Source of the DNA: Bradyrhizobium sp. BR 10289 | Lineage (GTDB): Bacteria; Pseudomonadota; Alphaproteobacteria; Rhizobiales; Xanthobacteraceae | Direction of reading: 5' to 3' | DNA length: 64,000 nucleotides | NCBI RefSeq assembly: GCF_019455385.1 | Contig: NZ_JACOFR010000012.1 | Coordinates: 124,001-188,000 of the forward strand | Shown: positions 15,688-23,844 of the stretch, piece after piece | Layout of the letters: the number at the start of each line of letters is the position of its first letter | How positions within the stretch are numbered: the stretch's first letter is position 1 | Program-made: the position numbers and the translations under genes | The notes under the pieces: generated by a model | The model's input: only the letters and a program-made list of their open reading frames with translations | The model's database searches: none | What the model was told of the DNA's origin: nothing

Positions 15688-16692
15688 ATGATCGGGATTG
15701 CGCGGCTCGCGCTTGTGGGCCTGATGGCGATCACGGCGCTGGGCACGGCCCGTGCCGAAGATGCGCTCAAGGCCAAGGTCGGGGTGCTCCGCCTGTCGTC
15801 CTCCGCGCCCGTTTTCATCGCCCAGGATAAGGGCTATTTCCGCGAGGCCGGTCTCGACGTCGAGCTGAAATTCTTCGACGCGGCGCAGCCGATCGCGGTC
15901 GCCACGACCTCGGGCGACGTCGATTTCGGCGTCACCGCCTTCACCGCCGGTCTCTACAATCTCGCCGGCAAGGGCGTGCTGAAGGTGATCGGCGGCATGA
16001 GCCGCGAAAAGGCCGGCTATCCCCTGATCGGCTATTTCGCCAGCAACAACGCCTATGCGGCCGGGCTGAAGACGCCGAAGGATCTCGCCGGCAAGCGCGT
16101 GGCGATGACGCAGGTCGGATCGAGCTTTCATTATTCGCTCGGCCTGCTCGCCGACAAATACGGTTTCAAGCTCGCGGATGTGAAGATCGTCCCGCTGCAA
16201 TCGCTGTCGAATGCCGCGGCCGCGCTGAAGGGCGAGACCGTCGATGCGGCGCTGCTGCCGATCTCCACCGCGCGAAGGCTGATGGACGAGGGCGGCGCGA
16301 AGTTTCTGGGTTGGGTCGGCGACGAGACGCCCTGGCAGCTCGGCGCGGTGTTCGCGTCCCCGAAGACGATGACCAACAAGGCTCTGGTGACGAAATTTCT
16401 CGGCGTGCTCGCGAAAGCCGATCGCGAATATCACGACGTCATTCTGGCTTCGATGAAGGACGGCGTCGCCCCGATCAACGAGCAGACCAAGCCGTTGCTG
16501 GAGATCATCGCCAAATACACCAATCTGCCGGTCGAGCAGGTGGTCGGCAATTGCGCCTATATCGATCCCGACGGCAAGCTGGACGTGAAGAACGTCGACA
16601 ACCAGATCAAGTGGCTCCAGGAGCAGGGCTTCGCGGACAAGGGTTATGATGCGAATGCGATCATCGCCAAGGATTTTGTGAAGGCGGATTGA
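15688..16692 (+). CDS. ABC transporter substrate-binding protein (NMT1/SsuA type)
   Basis: A 334-residue periplasmic receptor with a signal peptide (cleavage near ARA-EDAL) and the NMT1/SsuA-like opening KVGVLRLSSSAPVFIAQDKGYFREAGLDVELKF region. Relatives bind sulfonates, nitrate, pyrimidine precursors or aromatic acids. It starts an ABC operon with the ATPase and permease downstream. A 146-bp palindromic repeat lies between it and the ATPase gene. The adjacent FAD oxidoreductase may act on the ligand. Confidence 0.87.
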   Translation: MIGIARLALVGLMAITALGTARAEDALKAKVGVLRLSSSAPVFIAQDKGYFREAGLDVELKFFDAAQPIAVATTSGDVDFGVTAFTAGLYNLAGKGVLKVIGGMSREKAGYPLIGYFASNNAYAAGLKTPKDLAGKRVAMTQVGSSFHYSLGLLADKYGFKLADVKIVPLQSLSNAAAALKGETVDAALLPISTARRLMDEGGAKFLGWVGDETPWQLGAVFASPKTMTNKALVTKFLGVLAKADREYHDVILASMKDGVAPINEQTKPLLEIIAKYTNLPVEQVVGNCAYIDPDGKLDVKNVDNQIKWLQEQGFADKGYDANAIIAKDFVKAD

Positions 16693-16714
16693 TTGATGCG
16701 AACCGTTCTCTCAC

Positions 16715-16860
16715 CCCGTCATCCTGAGGTGCTCGACTTGCGGTCTTCCGCAAGGCAAGCCTCGAAGGATGCACGGCCCGGATGCGGCGGGGCCGTTCAT
16801 CCTTCGAGGCTCCCATTGCGATGCGTTCGCATCGCAATGCTCGCACCTCAGGATGACGGG
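16715..16860. repeat. Dispersed palindromic repeat, family A (copy 1)
   Basis: A 146-bp element with perfect 15-bp ends (cccgtcatcctgagg / cctcaggatgacggg) and an inner pair gcctcgaaggatg / catccttcgaggc. Each half also has a variable hairpin: cttgcgg-tctt-ccgcaag on the left, and cattgcgatgc-gttc-gcatcgcaatg on the right. Copies 2 and 3 are at 28807 and 62275. This copy lies between the binding-protein and ATPase genes of an ABC operon. Confidence 0.85.
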
Positions 16861-16883
16861 TCGACGGTGGGAGCGCGTAGCTC

Positions 16884-17657
16884 ATGGACCTGATCGCCAA
16901 CCACATCTCCCACCGCTTCGGCGATCTCGCCGTGCTCGACGACGTCTCCTTCACCGTCGGCGCGGGCGAAGTGGTCGCGATCGTCGGTCCCTCCGGCTGC
17001 GGCAAGAGCACGCTGCTGTCGATCCTCGGCGGGCTGTTGCAGCCGACATCAGGCACGCCCGAGCTGCGTGGCGCGCCGCCGGCGGACAGCCTTAATCCGC
17101 TCACCTTCGTGTTCCAGGATTTTGCCTTGCTGCCCTGGGCGACGGTGGAGGAGAACGTCGAATTCCCGCTGCTGCACACGCAGCTTTCGGCCACGCAGCG
17201 CCGCGGGCTGGTCGACGACGCCTTGCGCCGCACCGGTCTGACCGATTTTCGCGCGACCTATCCCAAGCAGCTCTCCGGCGGCATGCGCCAGCGCGTCGGC
17301 ATTTCGCGCGCGCTTGCAGTGAGACCAGCGATCCTGCTGATGGACGAGCCGCTGTCCGCGCTGGATTCGCAAACGCGCGAGCTGTTGATGGAAGATTTCG
17401 TCCGCCTGCTCGCCGATGGCTGCATGGGCGCGGTCTATGTCACCCACAATCTCGAGGAAGCGGCCCGGCTCGCGGACCGCATCGTGGTGCTGTCGCGCCG
17501 GCCGGGCCGCATCCGCGAGGTGGTGGCGGTGCCGATGACGCGCACTGAGCGCGGCGAAGCCGCCGCGCGCGAAAAACTGCTCGCGCTGCAGAACCAGATC
17601 TGGTCGCTGATCCGCAACGAGGCGATCGATGCCGAGCGCGAGGTTCAGCATGCTTGA
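16884..17657 (+). CDS. ABC transporter ATP-binding protein (SsuB/TauB type)
   Basis: A 257-residue ATPase subunit with Walker A (GPSGCGKST), Q-loop (FVFQDFALLPW), signature LSGGMRQRVG, Walker B (ILLMDEPLSALD) and switch His (VTHNLEEA). It energises import with the permease whose ATG overlaps its stop by 8 bp. It belongs to the nitrate/sulfonate/taurine class, like the binding protein upstream. Confidence 0.9.
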   Translation: MDLIANHISHRFGDLAVLDDVSFTVGAGEVVAIVGPSGCGKSTLLSILGGLLQPTSGTPELRGAPPADSLNPLTFVFQDFALLPWATVEENVEFPLLHTQLSATQRRGLVDDALRRTGLTDFRATYPKQLSGGMRQRVGISRALAVRPAILLMDEPLSALDSQTRELLMEDFVRLLADGCMGAVYVTHNLEEAARLADRIVVLSRRPGRIREVVAVPMTRTERGEAAAREKLLALQNQIWSLIRNEAIDAEREVQHA

Positions 17658-18468
17658 TCGCGCTGGGCTACCGGCAAAGGACGAGACGACGCGGCGCGTC
17701 AGGTTTCGCGGCGCCGGCTTCGTGCCCGCGTCGAGCCGCTTCGGCGGCTGGATCGCGCTCGCCCTGGTCATCGCGATCTGGCAGGCGGCGGGCAGCGCAG
17801 GTCTCGTCAATCCGCTGTTTCTGCCGGCGCCGTCGGCGATCGTGCGCGCGATCTACGAGCTCGCGCTATCGGGTGCACTCTGGCAGCACCTGTCCGCATC
17901 GCTGCTGCGCATCGGCGTTGGCTGGATGCTGGGAACGGCGGCCGGCGTTGCCGTCGGCTTCGCCATCGGCCTGTCCAGGCTGGCGCGCAGCGTCGGCATC
18001 ACCTTCATCTCCGCGCTATTCCCGATCCCGAAAATCGCGCTGCTGCCGCTTTTGATCCTCTGGCTCGGGATCGGCGAAGAGCCGAAGATCGCGACCATTG
18101 CGCTCGGCGTGTTCTTCTCGACCGCGATCTCGGTCTATAGCGGCGTCGACGCGGTGCCGCGCAACCTGATCCGCATGGCGCAGAGTTTCAACGTCCCCTT
18201 CGCCACCATCGTGCGCAAGGTGATCTGGCCCGGCGCGCTGCCCGCCATTCTCGCCGGCTTCCGCATCACCGCCTCGGTGGCGCTGCTGCTCGTCGTCAGC
18301 GCCGAGATGATCGGCGCGCAATACGGCATCGGCGCCTTCGTGCTGCAGGCCGGCAATCTGATGCAGACCGATCAGCTGCTCGCGGGCGTGGTGATCCTGT
18401 CGGTGTTTGGATTGGCGGTCGGCAAGGTGATCGGCTGGCTGGAGATCAAGCTGCTGCACTGGCGGTAG
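17650..18468 (+). CDS. ABC transporter permease (SsuC/TauC type)
   Basis: A 272-residue membrane protein with about six hydrophobic helices and the cytoplasmic coupling loop VPRNLIRMAQSFNVPFATIVRKVIWPGALPAIL region, which matches the EAA loop of this class. The ATG at 17650 overlaps the end of the ATPase gene, so the two are coupled. It completes the ABC importer begun at 15688. Confidence 0.88.
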   Translation: MLDRAGLPAKDETTRRVRFRGAGFVPASSRFGGWIALALVIAIWQAAGSAGLVNPLFLPAPSAIVRAIYELALSGALWQHLSASLLRIGVGWMLGTAAGVAVGFAIGLSRLARSVGITFISALFPIPKIALLPLLILWLGIGEEPKIATIALGVFFSTAISVYSGVDAVPRNLIRMAQSFNVPFATIVRKVIWPGALPAILAGFRITASVALLLVVSAEMIGAQYGIGAFVLQAGNLMQTDQLLAGVVILSVFGLAVGKVIGWLEIKLLHWR

Positions 18469-18587: not shown

Positions 18588-19628
18588 TCACGCGTTCCCG
18601 CGATCCTCGCGAAACAGATCCAGCTTCTGCTGCACCGGGCGGTCCGAGAAGCTGAACAGCACCGCATCGTCATCCGCCTCGTGCGTGACCCATTGCCAGC
18701 TCGGCACCACGAACAGATCGCGTGGGCCCCATTCGAAGACGGCATCGCCGATGCGGCTGCGGCCCCTGCCTTCGATCGGGCAGAACACCGTCGCATCCGT
18801 CGACCGATAACGCGCGGTCGCAAACCCCTTCGGCAGCAGCTGGATGAAGGTGCCGATGGTCGGCATCGCGAAATCGCCGGTCTCGGGGTTGCTGAATTTC
18901 AGCTTCAGCCCGTGGCAGGCGTCCCATTCCTGGCTCGTCCTGGCTTTTTCCAGCGCCTCGCGGGTGTAGACATAGGGATAGCTGAAGATCGGCGATGTCT
19001 TCGAGGACCGCCTCACGTCGACCGGCAGCAGATTGTGGCCGTAGCGCGCAAAGCTGTCGCCCGCGGGCTTTGTGATCCTCTGCTGGTCTTCCTTCGCGCC
19101 TTCCGCAAACGAGCAGTCGAAAAACTGCACCAGCGGGATGTCGAGGCCGTCGAGCCAGAACATCGGCTGGTCGGTCTCGTTGGAATGATCGTGCCAGGTC
19201 ATCGACGGCGTGATGATGAAGTCACCGGGCTCCATCGCGGTGCGCTCGCCGTCGACGGCGGTGTGGGCGCCCTTGCCTTCGAGCACGAAACGCAGCGCCG
19301 ACTGGCTGTGCCGGTGCGCCGGCGCGACGTCGCCGGGCACCACCATCTGCACGCCGGCATAGAGCGAGGTCGTGATCTTGGACTGGCCGCGCAGGCCCGG
19401 ATTTTCCAGTACCAGCACGCGCCGCTCGGCTTCCTTGGCGGTGATCAGCTTGCCGGCCTCCGTCATGTAGTCGCGGATGGTGTCGAACTTCCACAGATGC
19501 GGGCGGCAGGCGCTTCTGGGCTCCGGCGTGATCAGATCGCTCATCACCGTCCACAGCGCGGTGAGATTCTCGCCGTCGATCTTCTTGTAGAACGCCTCGC
19601 GTTCCGGCGTCTTGGTCACGGCTTCCAT
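18588..19628 (-). CDS. gtdA: Gentisate 1,2-dioxygenase
   Basis: A 346-residue bicupin. The first cupin has the Fe(II) ligands in APAHRHSQSALRF (His105, His107) and ITPSMTWHDHSNE. The second, degenerate cupin spans roughly residues 250-325. The length and these motifs match gentisate dioxygenases, which open the gentisate ring between C1 and C2 to maleylpyruvate in the cytoplasm. The ATG at 19628 follows ggagcc. A good promoter (TTGACG, 16 bp, TATACT) lies in the 91-bp gap to the divergent isomerase gene. 1-hydroxy-2-naphthoate dioxygenase is the main alternative. Confidence 0.85.
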   Translation of the reverse strand: MEAVTKTPEREAFYKKIDGENLTALWTVMSDLITPEPRSACRPHLWKFDTIRDYMTEAGKLITAKEAERRVLVLENPGLRGQSKITTSLYAGVQMVVPGDVAPAHRHSQSALRFVLEGKGAHTAVDGERTAMEPGDFIITPSMTWHDHSNETDQPMFWLDGLDIPLVQFFDCSFAEGAKEDQQRITKPAGDSFARYGHNLLPVDVRRSSKTSPIFSYPYVYTREALEKARTSQEWDACHGLKLKFSNPETGDFAMPTIGTFIQLLPKGFATARYRSTDATVFCPIEGRGRSRIGDAVFEWGPRDLFVVPSWQWVTHEADDDAVLFSFSDRPVQQKLDLFREDRGNA

Positions 19629-19653
19629 GGGCGGCTCCCGTTCGTTTTGTTGA

Positions 19654-19686
19654 TTGACAGTATACTGACGATCTAGATAGCGTCAA
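19654..19686 (-). promoter_or_regulatory. gtdA promoter with candidate MarR operator
   Basis: On the minus strand TTGACG (19681-19686) and TATACT (19659-19664) are 16 bp apart, a good sigma-70 promoter for the dioxygenase gene. A 22-bp element across it (19655-19676) contains the palindrome agtatact and the block atctag. It recurs with two mismatches at 23823-23844 in front of the monooxygenase operon. The outer ttgac/gtcaa ends are inverted. Binding by the local MarR protein is inference. Confidence 0.6.
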
Positions 19687-19719
19687 CGTGACGAACAAGA
19701 ACGAAACGGGAGGGTTCCG

Positions 19720-20349
19720 ATGAAGCTGCACGGCTATTTCCGCTCCAGCGCCGCCTATCGCGTGCGGATCGCGCTGAACCTCAAGGGCCTCGGTGCCGAG
19801 CACCTGCCGCATCACCTTCGCAAGGGCGAGCAATGCGCGCCCGCCTATCTCGCCATCAATCCGCAGGGCCTGGTGCCCGCGCTGGAGGAGGGCGGTGAAG
19901 TTCTCACCCAATCGGTCGCCATCATCGAATGGCTCGACGAGACGCATCCCAATCCGCCGCTGCTGCCGAAGGATCCGCTGCGCCGCGCCAAGGTGCGGGC
20001 GTTCGCGCTGGCGATCGCCTGCGACACGCACCCCGTGCAGAATTTGAAGGTGCTGGCACGGCTGCGTGAACTTGGCCTCGCCGAAGAGAAGGTCCAGGAC
20101 TGGGCCGCCTGGGTCAATCGTGAGGGCCTGTCCGCCTGCGAGACGCTGATCAAGGACGAGACGGGGCCGTTCTGCTTCGGCGATGCGCCGACGCTCGCCG
20201 ATCTCTGCCTGGTGCCGCAGCTTGCGAACGCGCGCCGCTTCGGCGTCGACGTCTCGGCCTATCCACGCCTGCTCAAGGCCGAGGCCGCGGCGAAGGCGCT
20301 GCCGGCGTTCGCCAATGCCGCGCCGGAGAAGCAGCCCGATGCCGAGTAA
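19720..20349 (+). CDS. maiA: Maleylacetoacetate/maleylpyruvate isomerase (zeta GST)
   Basis: A 209-residue zeta-class glutathione S-transferase. The glutathione motif is FRSSAAYRVRIALN, then NPQGLVPAL and the TQSVAIIEWL helix. Zeta GSTs isomerise maleylacetoacetate or, next to gentisate dioxygenase, maleylpyruvate to fumarylpyruvate. The context favours maleylpyruvate. A strong site (acgggagg) precedes the ATG. Its stop overlaps the MarR start by 11 bp. The next enzyme, fumarylpyruvate hydrolase, is not in the window. Confidence 0.83.
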   Translation: MKLHGYFRSSAAYRVRIALNLKGLGAEHLPHHLRKGEQCAPAYLAINPQGLVPALEEGGEVLTQSVAIIEWLDETHPNPPLLPKDPLRRAKVRAFALAIACDTHPVQNLKVLARLRELGLAEEKVQDWAAWVNREGLSACETLIKDETGPFCFGDAPTLADLCLVPQLANARRFGVDVSAYPRLLKAEAAAKALPAFANAAPEKQPDAE

Positions 20350-20848
20350 GCCTGCTCCGATCACGATCGACGCCGTCTATGCCGCACCGGGCTATCTGTT
20401 CCGGCGCATGCAGCAGATCGCGGTGTCGATCTTCATGGAGGAGTGCAAGGCGTTCGACCTGACGCCGGTGCAATATGCGGCGCTGATCGCGATCCACACC
20501 CATCCCGGCATCGATGCGACGCGGCTGTCGGCGGTGATCGCCTTCGACCGCTCCACGCTCGGCAGCGTGATCGAGCGGCTGCAGGTCAAGGATTTCGTCG
20601 AGCGCAAGCCGGCCCCCGAGGACAAGCGGATCAAGCTGCTCTATCTGACCAAGTCAGGCGCAGCGATCCTGCGCGAGATCATTCCCGCCGTCGAACGTGC
20701 GCAGGCGCGCATGCTGGAGCCGCTCAAGCCCGCCGATCGCAAGACGCTCATGGGGCTTCTGACGCAGCTCGTCGATCTCAACAACGAGGCGTCAAGGGTG
20801 CCGCTGCGGGCCGAGGATGCGCTGGAGCATCTGGGGAAGGGCGGGTGA
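20339..20848 (+). CDS. MarR family transcriptional regulator
   Basis: A 169-residue MarR-type regulator with a winged helix at about residues 40-110 (LTPVQYAALIAIHTHPGIDATRLS, then DRSTLGSVIERLQVKDFVERKPAPEDKRIKLLYLT, the wing). MarR proteins are dimers that usually repress aromatic-acid genes and release on ligand binding. It is translated from a start inside the isomerase gene, so the two are one transcript. The shared element at 19655 and 23823 is the obvious operator candidate. Confidence 0.88.
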   Translation: MPSKPAPITIDAVYAAPGYLFRRMQQIAVSIFMEECKAFDLTPVQYAALIAIHTHPGIDATRLSAVIAFDRSTLGSVIERLQVKDFVERKPAPEDKRIKLLYLTKSGAAILREIIPAVERAQARMLEPLKPADRKTLMGLLTQLVDLNNEASRVPLRAEDALEHLGKGG

Positions 20849-20890
20849 GGGGAGTGCGTGGCCAAGGCACTGCCGTTGCAATTATGAAGG

Positions 20891-20992
20891 TGTCATTCCC
20901 CGCGAAGGCGGGGAATCCAGTACGCCGCGGCTTCTCGGTGAACTACTGTCGTCTCGGAGTACTGGATCGCCCGGTCGAGCCGGGCGACGACA
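20891..20992. repeat. Dispersed palindromic repeat, family C
   Basis: The element starts with the hairpin attccccgc-gaag-gcggggaat and ends with cgcccggtcgagccgggcg. The inner atccagtac and gtactggat pair across it. It occupies the gap between the convergent MarR and CoA-ligase genes. One copy in this window. Confidence 0.7.
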
Positions 20993-21017
20993 CCGGTTGT
21001 GTGACGAAACGATTGCC

Positions 21018-22631
21018 TCACATCCGCAACAACGCCTGCCGATCGATCTTCCCCGTGCCCGTCTTGGGCAGCTCGTCGATGAAGATCACCTCGCGCGGAT
21101 ATTTGTAGGGCAAGAGCTTGCCCTTCACATAGTCCTGGAGTCGCCGCGTCGCCTCGCTCCGGTCGGCGGCGCGGCTGTTCATCACCACCACCGCTTTCAG
21201 TGTCATGCGCCGATCCGGCAGCTCGGCCGCGAACACGGCGCATTCGCGGATATCTGGGTGGTCGGCGAGGCACAGCTCGACCTCGAGCGGATACACCCAC
21301 TGGCCGGAGATCTTGATCAGATCATCGGCGCGGCCGCGGAAGAAGTGGAAGCCGTCGCTATCCCTGACGAAGCGGTCGCCGGTGTAGATCCAGCCGCCCT
21401 CGCGAATGGTCTCGGCGGATTTGTCCGGCCTGTTCCAGTATAGCGGCGTGTTGGAATCGCCGCGCACCCACAAGATGCCCTCCTCGTTGTCGGCGACGTC
21501 GCGTCCGTCGCTGTCGCGCAAGCTCACCTCGTAGCCGGGCACGCGCAGGCCGGCGGCGCCGAGCTTCTTCTGCTCGGGCCGGTTGGACAGATAAATGTGC
21601 AGCACCTCGGTCGAGCCGAGGCCTTCGACGATCTCGAGCCCCGTGAGCGTCTTCCAGCCGTTGAAGACGTCCGCCGACAGCACTTCGGCCGCGGACAGCG
21701 CCATGCGCAGCGACGAAAAATTCGTCTTGCTCCCGCCTTCGGCCTTGGTGAGGGATGTGTAGAGCGTCGGCAGGCCGAAGAAGACCGTCGGCCTGTATTG
21801 CTCGATCGCCGCGAAGATCGCCGCGGGCTTGGGCTGGCCCGGCAGCAGCAGCGTCGCCGCGCCCGCCGAGAACGGGAAGGTGACGGAGTTGCCGAACCCA
21901 TAGGCGAAGAAAATCTTCGGCACGGAGAAGCAGATGTCGTCAGGTGTCAGCCTCAAGACGTTCTGCGCGAAGGCGAGCTCGCTATAGGCCATGTCGTGCT
22001 GCAGATGCACGATGCCCTTGGGCCGGCCGGTCGAGCCGGAGGAGTACATCCAGAACGCCATCTCGTTGCGGTCGGTGTCGGCCTCAGTGAGCTCGGCTGG
22101 AAATTCCCCAAGCCAGCTCGCCGCTCGAACCGCATGCGGCGCGGCGTGAGCGCCGATCTCGCCATTCACCACGATCAAGGTGCGCAGATCCGTGTCCTTG
22201 CAAGCCTCGGCGTTGAAACGCGCCACGAATTCGGCCTCAGTGACCGCAACGCTCGCACTGGAATCGGCGAGATAGAATTGCAGCAGATCCGGTGGTGTCA
22301 GCGTGTTGATGAGCAGCGGCACGAAGCCGGCGCGAACCGCGCCGAAGAAGGCGGCGGGATAGGCCGGCGTGTCGTCGAGGAACAGCAGCACGCGGTCGCC
22401 GCGCCTCAGGCCGAGCGAGGCGAAGCCATTGCCCCAGCGGCAAGCCTCCGCACAGAGCTCGGCATAGGTCCGCGTGCCCGCGGGCCCGATCAGCGCCAGC
22501 CTGTCGCCGCGGTCCTTAGCGAGATTCTCGAACAGCACGCGGCTGGCATTGTAGATTTGCGGAACGGCAAAGCCGATCTCGCGGGCGCCCGCGCTGTCGG
22601 CGGGCACCTGGTCGCTGATCTCATTGCTCAT
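21018..22631 (-). CDS. Benzoate-CoA ligase family aryl-CoA synthetase
   Basis: A 537-residue adenylate-forming ligase of the benzoate/hydroxybenzoate-CoA type. Motifs: MYSSGSTGRPKGIVH (P-loop), EGLGSTEVLHIY, TGDRFVRDSDGFHFFRGR, and KTGTGKIDRQAL with the C-terminal lysine. It would turn an aromatic acid into its CoA thioester. It is coupled to the flavin monooxygenase by a 4-bp stop-start overlap. Next to a gentisate dioxygenase, salicylate, 3-hydroxybenzoate or anthranilate are candidate substrates; none is proven. Confidence 0.82.
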   Translation of the reverse strand: MSNEISDQVPADSAGAREIGFAVPQIYNASRVLFENLAKDRGDRLALIGPAGTRTYAELCAEACRWGNGFASLGLRRGDRVLLFLDDTPAYPAAFFGAVRAGFVPLLINTLTPPDLLQFYLADSSASVAVTEAEFVARFNAEACKDTDLRTLIVVNGEIGAHAAPHAVRAASWLGEFPAELTEADTDRNEMAFWMYSSGSTGRPKGIVHLQHDMAYSELAFAQNVLRLTPDDICFSVPKIFFAYGFGNSVTFPFSAGAATLLLPGQPKPAAIFAAIEQYRPTVFFGLPTLYTSLTKAEGGSKTNFSSLRMALSAAEVLSADVFNGWKTLTGLEIVEGLGSTEVLHIYLSNRPEQKKLGAAGLRVPGYEVSLRDSDGRDVADNEEGILWVRGDSNTPLYWNRPDKSAETIREGGWIYTGDRFVRDSDGFHFFRGRADDLIKISGQWVYPLEVELCLADHPDIRECAVFAAELPDRRMTLKAVVVMNSRAADRSEATRRLQDYVKGKLLPYKYPREVIFIDELPKTGTGKIDRQALLRM

Positions 22632-23806
22632 GCCGTCGCCTCGCCGTCGGCGGTCCCGCCGTTGGCCGCGCCATCGTCGACGTGGTTCTTGGCGGCCTCA
22701 TAGCGCGCCATGAAGGCCGGCGACATATGGCGCAGGCGTGCGTCGTCGATGCGGCCGGAGCGGGTGATGTAGCTGTAGGCGAAGTCGATCGGATCGAGCT
22801 GCATGTGCTGGGCAAAATGTTCATACCAGAAGGCGCTGGTGCGAGCGGCGTTGACGAGCTTCTGCACCACCGGCTTGCGCGCGGCCTGGTAGCGATGCAG
22901 CGCGGTGGTTAGATGCGCATCGGATTCCAGCGCCTTGACCAGCGCGATCGCATCCTCGATCGCGAGCCGCGTGCCCGAGCCGATCGAGAAATGCGCCGAG
23001 TGCAGGGCATCGCCGATCAGCACCATGTTCTTGAACGACCAGTGCTCGTTCCAGATCCAGGGGAAATTGCGCCACACCGATTTGTTGGAGACGAGGCAGT
23101 GGCCGCCGAGCGTATCGGCAAACACCTCCTCGCAGACGCCCTTGGACTGCTCGACGTCCTTGTAGGCGAAGCCATAGGCCTGCCATGTCGCGTGATCGCA
23201 TTCGACCAGGAACGTGCTCATGGTCGGCGAGTAGCGGTAGTGATGGGCGTTGAAGGCGCCGCGGTCGGTCTTCACGAACGTCTGCGACAGCGTGTCGAAG
23301 CGTTTCGAGGTGCCGTACCAGACGAACTTGTTGGAGGAGTAGGACAGCGACGTGCCGAAATCGCCCTCATAGGTGCGCCGCACCAGCGAATTCAGCCCGT
23401 CGGCGGCGACGATCAGGTCGTAGCCGCCCAGCTGGTCGATCGTGTGGATCTGGGTGTCGAAGCGCGACGTGACGCCCGCATCGAGCGCGCGCTGCTGCAG
23501 GAACCTCAACAGCTCGAGCCGCCCGATCGAGGAGAAGCCGACACCGTCGATGGCGACGCTGTCGCCATGCAGATTCAGCGTGATGTTCTCCCAGCTCTCC
23601 ATATGCGGCGCGATCGCGTCGACCGTCTCGGGGTCGTCCGCGCGCAAAAATTCCAGCGCCTGGTCGGAGAACACGACGCCAAAACCCCAGGTCGCGTCGG
23701 CCGGGTTCTGTTCGAACAGGTCGACTTGATCCTCGGGGTGACGCTTCTTCCAGAGATAGGCGAAGTAGAGCCCACCGGGCCCCCCGCCAATCACGGCGAT
23801 CCGCAA
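22628..23806 (-). CDS. Class A FAD monooxygenase, aryl-CoA hydroxylase-like
   Basis: A 392-residue flavoprotein with the FAD motif AVIGGGPGGLYFAYLWKK, the NADPH/FAD DG motif LIVAADGLNSLVRR and the GD motif MVLIGDALHSAHFSIGSG. It resembles the monooxygenase half of 2-aminobenzoyl-CoA monooxygenase/reductase and salicylyl-CoA 5-hydroxylase. The partner ligase overlaps its stop by 4 bp, which supports a CoA-ester substrate. The start is TTG at 23806 behind agggagg. The product could be gentisyl-CoA, which after thioester cleavage would feed the dioxygenase at 18588. Confidence 0.8.
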   Translation of the reverse strand: MRIAVIGGGPGGLYFAYLWKKRHPEDQVDLFEQNPADATWGFGVVFSDQALEFLRADDPETVDAIAPHMESWENITLNLHGDSVAIDGVGFSSIGRLELLRFLQQRALDAGVTSRFDTQIHTIDQLGGYDLIVAADGLNSLVRRTYEGDFGTSLSYSSNKFVWYGTSKRFDTLSQTFVKTDRGAFNAHHYRYSPTMSTFLVECDHATWQAYGFAYKDVEQSKGVCEEVFADTLGGHCLVSNKSVWRNFPWIWNEHWSFKNMVLIGDALHSAHFSIGSGTRLAIEDAIALVKALESDAHLTTALHRYQAARKPVVQKLVNAARTSAFWYEHFAQHMQLDPIDFAYSYITRSGRIDDARLRHMSPAFMARYEAAKNHVDDGAANGGTADGEATA

Positions 23807-23822
23807 CGTCTGCCTCCCTAAC

Positions 23823-23844
23823 TGACAGTATACTTACTATCTAG
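23823..23844 (-). promoter_or_regulatory. Second copy of candidate MarR operator, monooxygenase promoter
   Basis: These 22 bp differ from 19655-19676 at only two positions, sharing tgacagtatact and atctag at the same spacing. On the minus strand TATACT (23827-23832) lies 20 bp before the TTG start of the monooxygenase, in the place of a -10 box. The -35 region is weak (ttagtc with a 17-bp spacer). Confidence 0.55.

Follow-up and report, generated by a model that had tools for sequence, protein, structure and literature searches.

Two palindromes at the promoters of a Bradyrhizobium gentisate cluster, predicted operators of the neighbouring MarR-family regulator

The gentisate cluster and its two palindromes

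The DNA analysed here is a stretch of 64,000 nucleotides from Bradyrhizobium sp. BR 10289 (assembly GCF_019455385.1, contig NZ_JACOFR010000012.1, positions 124,001-188,000, forward strand), referred to as the window, in which all coordinates below are given. A five-gene cluster encoding a dioxygenase, an isomerase, a MarR-family regulator, a monooxygenase and a CoA ligase surrounds two short related elements, and its features are the following:

18588..19628, minus strand: gentisate 1,2-dioxygenase (TIGR02272, 628 bits)
19653..19672, no strand: predicted operator 1, ATTGACAGTATACTGACGAT, 2 of 20 positions off a perfect palindrome; present in 80 of 80 same-genus loci
19654..19659, plus strand: putative -35 box TTGACA of the isomerase-marR promoter, inside operator 1, proposed from the sequence
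19659..19664, minus strand: -10 box TATACT of the dioxygenase promoter, inside operator 1, from a promoter scan
19678-19683, plus strand: weak candidate -10 box TAGCGT of the isomerase-marR promoter, 18-bp spacer
19681..19686, minus strand: -35 box TTGACG of the dioxygenase promoter, 16 bp from the -10 box; invariant in 80 of 80 relatives
19720..20349, plus strand: maleylacetoacetate isomerase family protein, GST-type (TIGR01262, 269 bits)
20339..20848, plus strand: MarR-family regulator (MarR 20339), its gene overlapping the isomerase gene
21018..22631, minus strand: benzoate-CoA ligase family protein (TIGR02262, 481 bits, cut-off 375), second gene of the operon
22628..23806, minus strand: FAD monooxygenase, first gene of the operon, TTG start, overlapping the ligase gene
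23821..23840, no strand: predicted operator 2, ACTGACAGTATACTTACTAT, 4 of 20 positions off a palindrome; present in 75 of 76 relatives with the monooxygenase gene
23827..23832, minus strand: putative -10 box TATACT of the monooxygenase-ligase operon, inside operator 2, proposed from the sequence

The context of the isomerase suggests that it is a maleylpyruvate isomerase. The FAD monooxygenase scores 406 bits against the salicylyl-CoA 5-hydroxylase/oxidoreductase model, below the cut-off of 1078, and covers only the first half of that model (positions 1-384 of 768); it may be an aryl-CoA hydroxylase. MarR 20339, whose gene is adjacent to the gentisate dioxygenase cluster with operator 1 at the dioxygenase promoter, belongs to the MarR family by both PF12802 (44.0 bits, cut-off 27) and PF01047 (43.6 bits, cut-off 24.6). 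Its predicted structure has the MarR-like order of helices and strands, with a winged helix-turn-helix and dimerisation helices in the model. In a structure comparison, the majority of the best 50 rows were named MarR-family regulators, with Z scores of 11.7-13.0 that have to be read against a mean pLDDT of 70.6 in the best model (the four others reach about 41), and against chance Z scores that can reach 13 among helical proteins. Further to the left in the window (15688-18468), SsuA/NMT1-type ABC transporter genes converge on the dioxygenase gene and could encode an uptake system.

The initial annotation had described 19655-19676 and 23823-23844 as 22-bp elements identical at 20 positions, which is correct: they read TGACAGTATACTGACGATCTAG and TGACAGTATACTTACTATCTAG, and their core AGTATACT is, as claimed, a palindrome. 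With up to three mismatches, the 22-bp pattern matches the window twice, at the two known sites, and was found in none of 100 dinucleotide-preserving shuffles. The element is thus real, but its limits have to be moved, as alignment with relatives identified the conserved unit as a 20-bp inverted repeat that starts two bases further left, with the consensus ATTGACAGTATACTGTCAAT, matched perfectly by one relative (L118). The shared atctag, read as a motif of its own, corresponds to the weakly conserved right arm of the palindrome plus a few bases, and it was dropped as a second conserved box because it varies in relatives. Operator 2, with its four deviating positions, is the weaker of the two sites. 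A matrix gave scores of 31.7 and 25.8 to the operators; additional operators in the window, e.g., ahead of the ABC transporter gene at 15688, were rejected since the next best score is only 5.6.

Tandem sites in three other loci (L125, L141 and L145), together with a TTGAC...GTCAA arrangement spanning 33 bp, raised the idea that site 1 has a decayed second unit at +15, on its right side. This candidate was rejected: over the 80 loci, similarity to CAGTATRCTG at +15 averages 4.14 of 10 positions vs 4.38 at +11, no better than at other positions, and at site 2 it amounts to 2.20 matches at +15. A -35 box, not a second operator unit, accounts for the conserved TTGACG on that side of site 1.

The minus-strand TATACT had been taken as the -10 box of the leftward gene at both sites. 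At site 1 this reading is strong, as the promoter scan returned TTGACG-16 bp-TATACT on the minus strand, and TATACT itself is found in 61 of 80 relatives, with one-base variants in the rest. At site 2, however, the scan detected no promoter and no recognisable -35 box; TATACT there precedes the TTG start (23806) by 21-26 bp, and the ribosome site AGGGAGG lies between them. On the other side of site 1, the palindrome lies in the promoter region of the regulator's own transcript, before isomerase-marR, in 80 of 80 relatives. A rightward isomerase-marR promoter was not found by the scan at site 1; its putative -35 region, TAGCGTCAA, is kept in 75 of the 80. Operator 1 hence appears to lie inside two face-to-face promoters.

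Rarity in the genome and conservation in the genus

A search of the own genome, 7,755,363 bases (7.76 Mb), with the 20-mer pattern and a tolerance of three mismatches returned operators 1 and 2 only (control 0), and a looser 21-mer pattern adds a single place (contig 5, three mismatches; control 1). The 8-bp core AGTATACT occurs at three places vs 17 for the reversed pattern, the third being located between a MarR paralogue gene and an aromatic hydroxylase gene that matches the phenol 2-monooxygenase subfamily. This is the genome-wide motif search that the initial annotation had proposed, and no spread of the element over unrelated promoters was seen in this genome.

Conservation was followed in a set of 98 genomes of the genus, 95 of which hold a MarR orthologue (threshold E 1e-60); the named relatives of the regulator are nearly all Bradyrhizobium among the best 80 of 517 matches. 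Eighty same-genus loci with the orthologue (77-98% identity), taken from these 95 genomes, were aligned. Operator 1 is present in every one of them, with 0-4 mismatches to the palindrome, and 9 of its 20 positions are invariant, vs 28 of 346 for the third codon positions of the dioxygenase gene (78 loci). Operator 2 has 2-6 mismatches in the 75 loci that keep it. That count leaves out four loci (L092, L094, L106 and L107) in which the monooxygenase gene is absent from the stretch examined and includes L108, scored positive by hand, where the BLAST match starts at residue 147 and the site lies just before the extrapolated start. In L105, the monooxygenase gene is present and operator 2 was not found within 400 bp.

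The 13-mer TTGACAGTATACT gave 129 matches in 80 of the 98 genomes (three for the reversed control), and 127 of them lie at promoters of the gentisate cluster, a placement checked directly for 109 and deduced for the others from neighbouring genes or the distance to marR. Operator 1 accounts for 62 of the 109 matches in aligned loci and operator 2 for 47, and one more is operator 1 of the window itself. Among the remaining 19, 13 stand at the expected distance from a MarR orthologue, four are on other contigs beside a dioxygenase or monooxygenase gene, and one (G156:C322) is 44 bp from a contig end. The match at G019:C1:2426711 (L155) was rejected as an operator; it is located between the ends of two convergent frames and looks like chance. 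None of the three genus genomes without MarR at E 1e-60 contains an exact TTGACAGTATACT. Fifteen genomes have MarR and lack the exact 13-mer; the nine of them that were aligned (L085, L088, L105, L111 and L113-L117) carry one-base core variants at operator 1, including AGCATACT, AGTGTACT and AGTATGCT.

Two loci, L082 and L072, lack a CoA ligase gene in the interval from marR to the monooxygenase gene; the frame of the latter is open, and in L082 operator 2 is weakened (five mismatches). In another (L077:2516-4214), a 429-aa frame, transposase-like by eye, stands between marR and the ligase gene.

The choice of regulator and relatives beyond the genus

The paralogue at the third AGTATACT is 46% identical to MarR 20339 and shares a divergent promoter with the phenol 2-monooxygenase/MobA-like gene (L009:1500-1524; G000 contig 11, ~571736). 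We take it to be MobR-like, a label based on arrangement. In this promoter, two related units stand 15 bp apart and TTGAC is one base further from AGTATACT; a similar pair, also 15 bp apart, precedes the MarR paralogues of L126, L129-L131, L133, L136 and L137. The shorter unit CAGTATACTG was discarded as a specific marker in its own right. Among 12 further places examined, ten (L161 and L163-L171) have no relatives of the query genes in the 2.4-2.6 kb around each, and the other two (L162 and L172) are MobR-like promoters.

In 13 same-genus genomes, only one match at E 1e-20 was found among the matches listed (at most 24 candidates scored per genome), i.e., the paralogue was not detected. Operator 1 persists, with 1-3 mismatches, in each of the ten among these genomes that were aligned, hence the site follows MarR 20339 and not the paralogue.

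Two other explanations of the elements have to be weighed. They could be conserved core promoters, composed of the -10 box TATACT and its neighbours, on which no repressor acts: TATACT makes a good -10 box and TTGACG occupies the -35 place of site 1 in all 80 relatives. Yet conservation extends over the palindrome beyond what a -10 box needs, AGTATACT is limited to three places in a genome whose promoters are far more numerous, and similar units recur in tandem before related MarR genes, which makes this reading very improbable. That the sites are occupied chiefly by the MobR-like paralogue, or by the two regulators alike, with cross-wiring of two regulons as the result, is improbable to a slightly lesser degree. 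The unit centred on AGTATACT is common to both types of promoter, and the one AGTATACT that the genome has besides those of the two operators is found at the paralogue, but the paralogue's sites differ by an additional base (TTGACA-AGTATACT) and by a pair of units at a distance of 15 bp, and operator 1 persists in the ten relatives without a paralogue among the matches listed. Moreover, genome G048, which has weaker matches and no MarR 20339 orthologue, has no TTGACAGTATACT.

The proposal of the initial annotation, that both elements are bound by MarR 20339, is thereby supported within the genus: near-uniqueness in the genome, conservation at both promoters and dependence on MarR 20339, not on its paralogue, point to predicted operators. 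It is highly likely that both elements are operators of this regulator, at which it represses three units, including its own, until an aromatic effector is present. Put more generally, the palindromes are very probably docking sites of the neighbouring repressor, by which genes for the degradation of aromatic acids are switched together.

Outside the genus, support for these predicted operators is real but partial. The palindrome with up to two mismatches occurs in 15 of 297 genomes of the order (control 0). Dioxygenase-isomerase-marR is present in nine of the 15 loci, of which six belong to the genus and three (L141, L145 and L146) to other families, while no relative of the cluster genes was detected within the stretch examined in the other six. 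These six unlinked palindromes mean that the sequence by itself is no proof of MarR 20339, and outside the genus the palindrome alone is shared with something else, perhaps other MarR-type regulators, as at L140. In that locus, from another family, ATTGACAATATACTGTCAAT (L140:1501-1520) overlaps the start of a 173-aa frame that is MarR-type by eye. A further sequence, ATTGACAATATATTGTCAAT, is found in three further genomes and perhaps belongs to another group of regulators with the same outer arms.

The distinct sites of the genus, each also entered as its reverse complement, served to build a matrix, with which the 200 bp upstream of related MarR genes elsewhere were scored; where an isomerase gene stood ahead of marR, the 200 bp upstream of that gene were taken. 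In two sets, the matrix beat all 500 shuffles in 13 of 25 and 8 of 19 regions, with rows that are partly dependent: L145 and L146 are nearly identical to each other, a single genus supplied both L125 and L284, and L137, L283 and L291 lie beside MobA-like genes. The five top scores all belong to isomerase-marR operons beside a gentisate dioxygenase gene (L141, L145, L146, L284 and L255). The matrix failed to beat all shuffles in 12 of the 25 and 11 of the 19 distant regions. In four of these (L122, L138, L262 and L264), marR directly follows an enzyme gene of the same orientation and the region scored is probably not a promoter; no such explanation applies to L121, L124, L132, L139 (3/500), L258, L261, L265, L268, L278, L279, L282 (2/500), L285, L287-L289 and L293-L296.

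Proposed control, effector and known systems

MarR proteins act as dimers on inverted repeats and most of those studied are repressors, according to passages of two papers (PMC4737184, PMC5487221). In the mechanism proposed here, a dimer of MarR 20339 (20339-20848) would bind each 20-bp inverted repeat and cover the -10 box of the dioxygenase gene and that of the monooxygenase-CoA ligase operon. The same dimer at site 1 would also cover the putative -35 box of the face-to-face isomerase-marR promoter, so that one operator could shut two promoters and the regulator could limit itself. An aromatic effector would free the dimer, and the three units of the predicted regulon (dioxygenase, isomerase-marR and monooxygenase-ligase) would be switched on together.

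The ligand is plausibly an aromatic acid or its CoA ester, as the initial annotation had put it. In 22 of the 80 relatives, a 3-hydroxybenzoate 6-monooxygenase gene (L087:2554-3732, for example) lies 3-84 bp downstream of marR in the same orientation; the one of the 22 that was tested scores 563 bits against a cut-off of 459. The own genome has no close homologue of this enzyme (37% identity at best). Gentisate is the compound common to both feeder arms and is therefore favoured as the effector, with a likelihood that we put a little short of even; otherwise, salicylate, 3-hydroxybenzoate or an aryl-CoA could play this role. The nearest solved relatives by sequence, at about 53 bits, include BpsR, which binds 6-hydroxynicotinic acid, and PcaV, which binds protocatechuate, a weak hint as to the effector.

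That MarR 20339 acts at the two sites with an aryl-CoA (salicylyl-CoA or benzoyl-CoA, for instance) as its effector, instead of a free acid, is rather unlikely, although the regulated operon includes a benzoate-CoA ligase family gene and a passage of PMC4424350 lists GenR, also a MarR protein, among the regulators that recognise benzoyl-CoA. Against it stands the monooxygenase gene that follows marR in the 22 relatives, since its product makes gentisate without CoA, as well as the binding of free acids by BpsR and PcaV, relatives at about 53 bits only.

MarR repressors of gentisate clusters are already known and the control proposed here is of an ordinary kind. As described in the part of PMC4424350 that cites it, GenR of Comamonas testosteroni is a MarR-family regulator of the gentisate pathway with benzoyl-CoA as effector, and resembles MarR 20339 in family and probable pathway. 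MobR of C. testosteroni, which a passage of PMC6191541 presents as the repressor of the 3-hydroxybenzoate hydroxylase gene, resembles the MarR paralogue of the own genome, which is similarly placed, a likeness of arrangement only. Operator 1 resembles in layout the site of CouR in Rhodococcus jostii RHA1, where, in the relevant passages of PMC4737184, one inverted repeat with ATTGA/TCAAT arms serves two divergent promoters; the CouR site differs in its 5-bp spacer (10 bp here), in overlapping -35 boxes and in its ligand, p-coumaroyl-CoA. In Burkholderia xenovorans LB400, the MarR gene mhbR is located beside a gentisate cluster and a palindrome was proposed, as given in a passage of PMC3572157, but this site, ATTGTTTCACAAACTAAT, stands before a transporter gene and does not contain AGTATACT. 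In the open-licence PMC literature, no paper on this operator or on the MarR 20339 regulator was found by title among the matches listed. Nothing there joined salicylyl-CoA, gentisate and MarR, or MarR, gentisate, Bradyrhizobium and operator, and none of the 11 papers containing CAGTATACTG was on this subject by its title.

The spacing of the units suggests a wider reading, which is tentative and which we hold to be somewhat less probable than gentisate as the effector. A MarR clade for hydroxybenzoate and gentisate catabolism may read the unit CAGTATACTG in several proteobacterial families, its paralogues being separated by spacing alone, and the gentisate-type operator may lie inside overlapping face-to-face promoters. 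As part of this joint reading, the gentisate regulator would recognise a single unit with TTGAC directly against AGTATACT, and the MobR-like regulator a pair of units, separated by 15 bp, with an additional base. If this is true, a stretch of about 33 bp in the gentisate type of the genus serves for repression, autoregulation and mutual exclusion of the promoters. The use of one unit at different spacings by two paralogues is possibly the part worth following for the specialist, and the paired paralogues offer a clean test case for how close repressors keep their targets apart.

For a regulator present in 95 of the 98 genus genomes, the analysis gives a defined predicted operator, a three-unit predicted regulon and a short list of ligands. 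It bears on how the use of plant-derived hydroxybenzoates is decided in soil bacteria and legume symbionts, and the operator matrix suggests targets for related regulators in other families.
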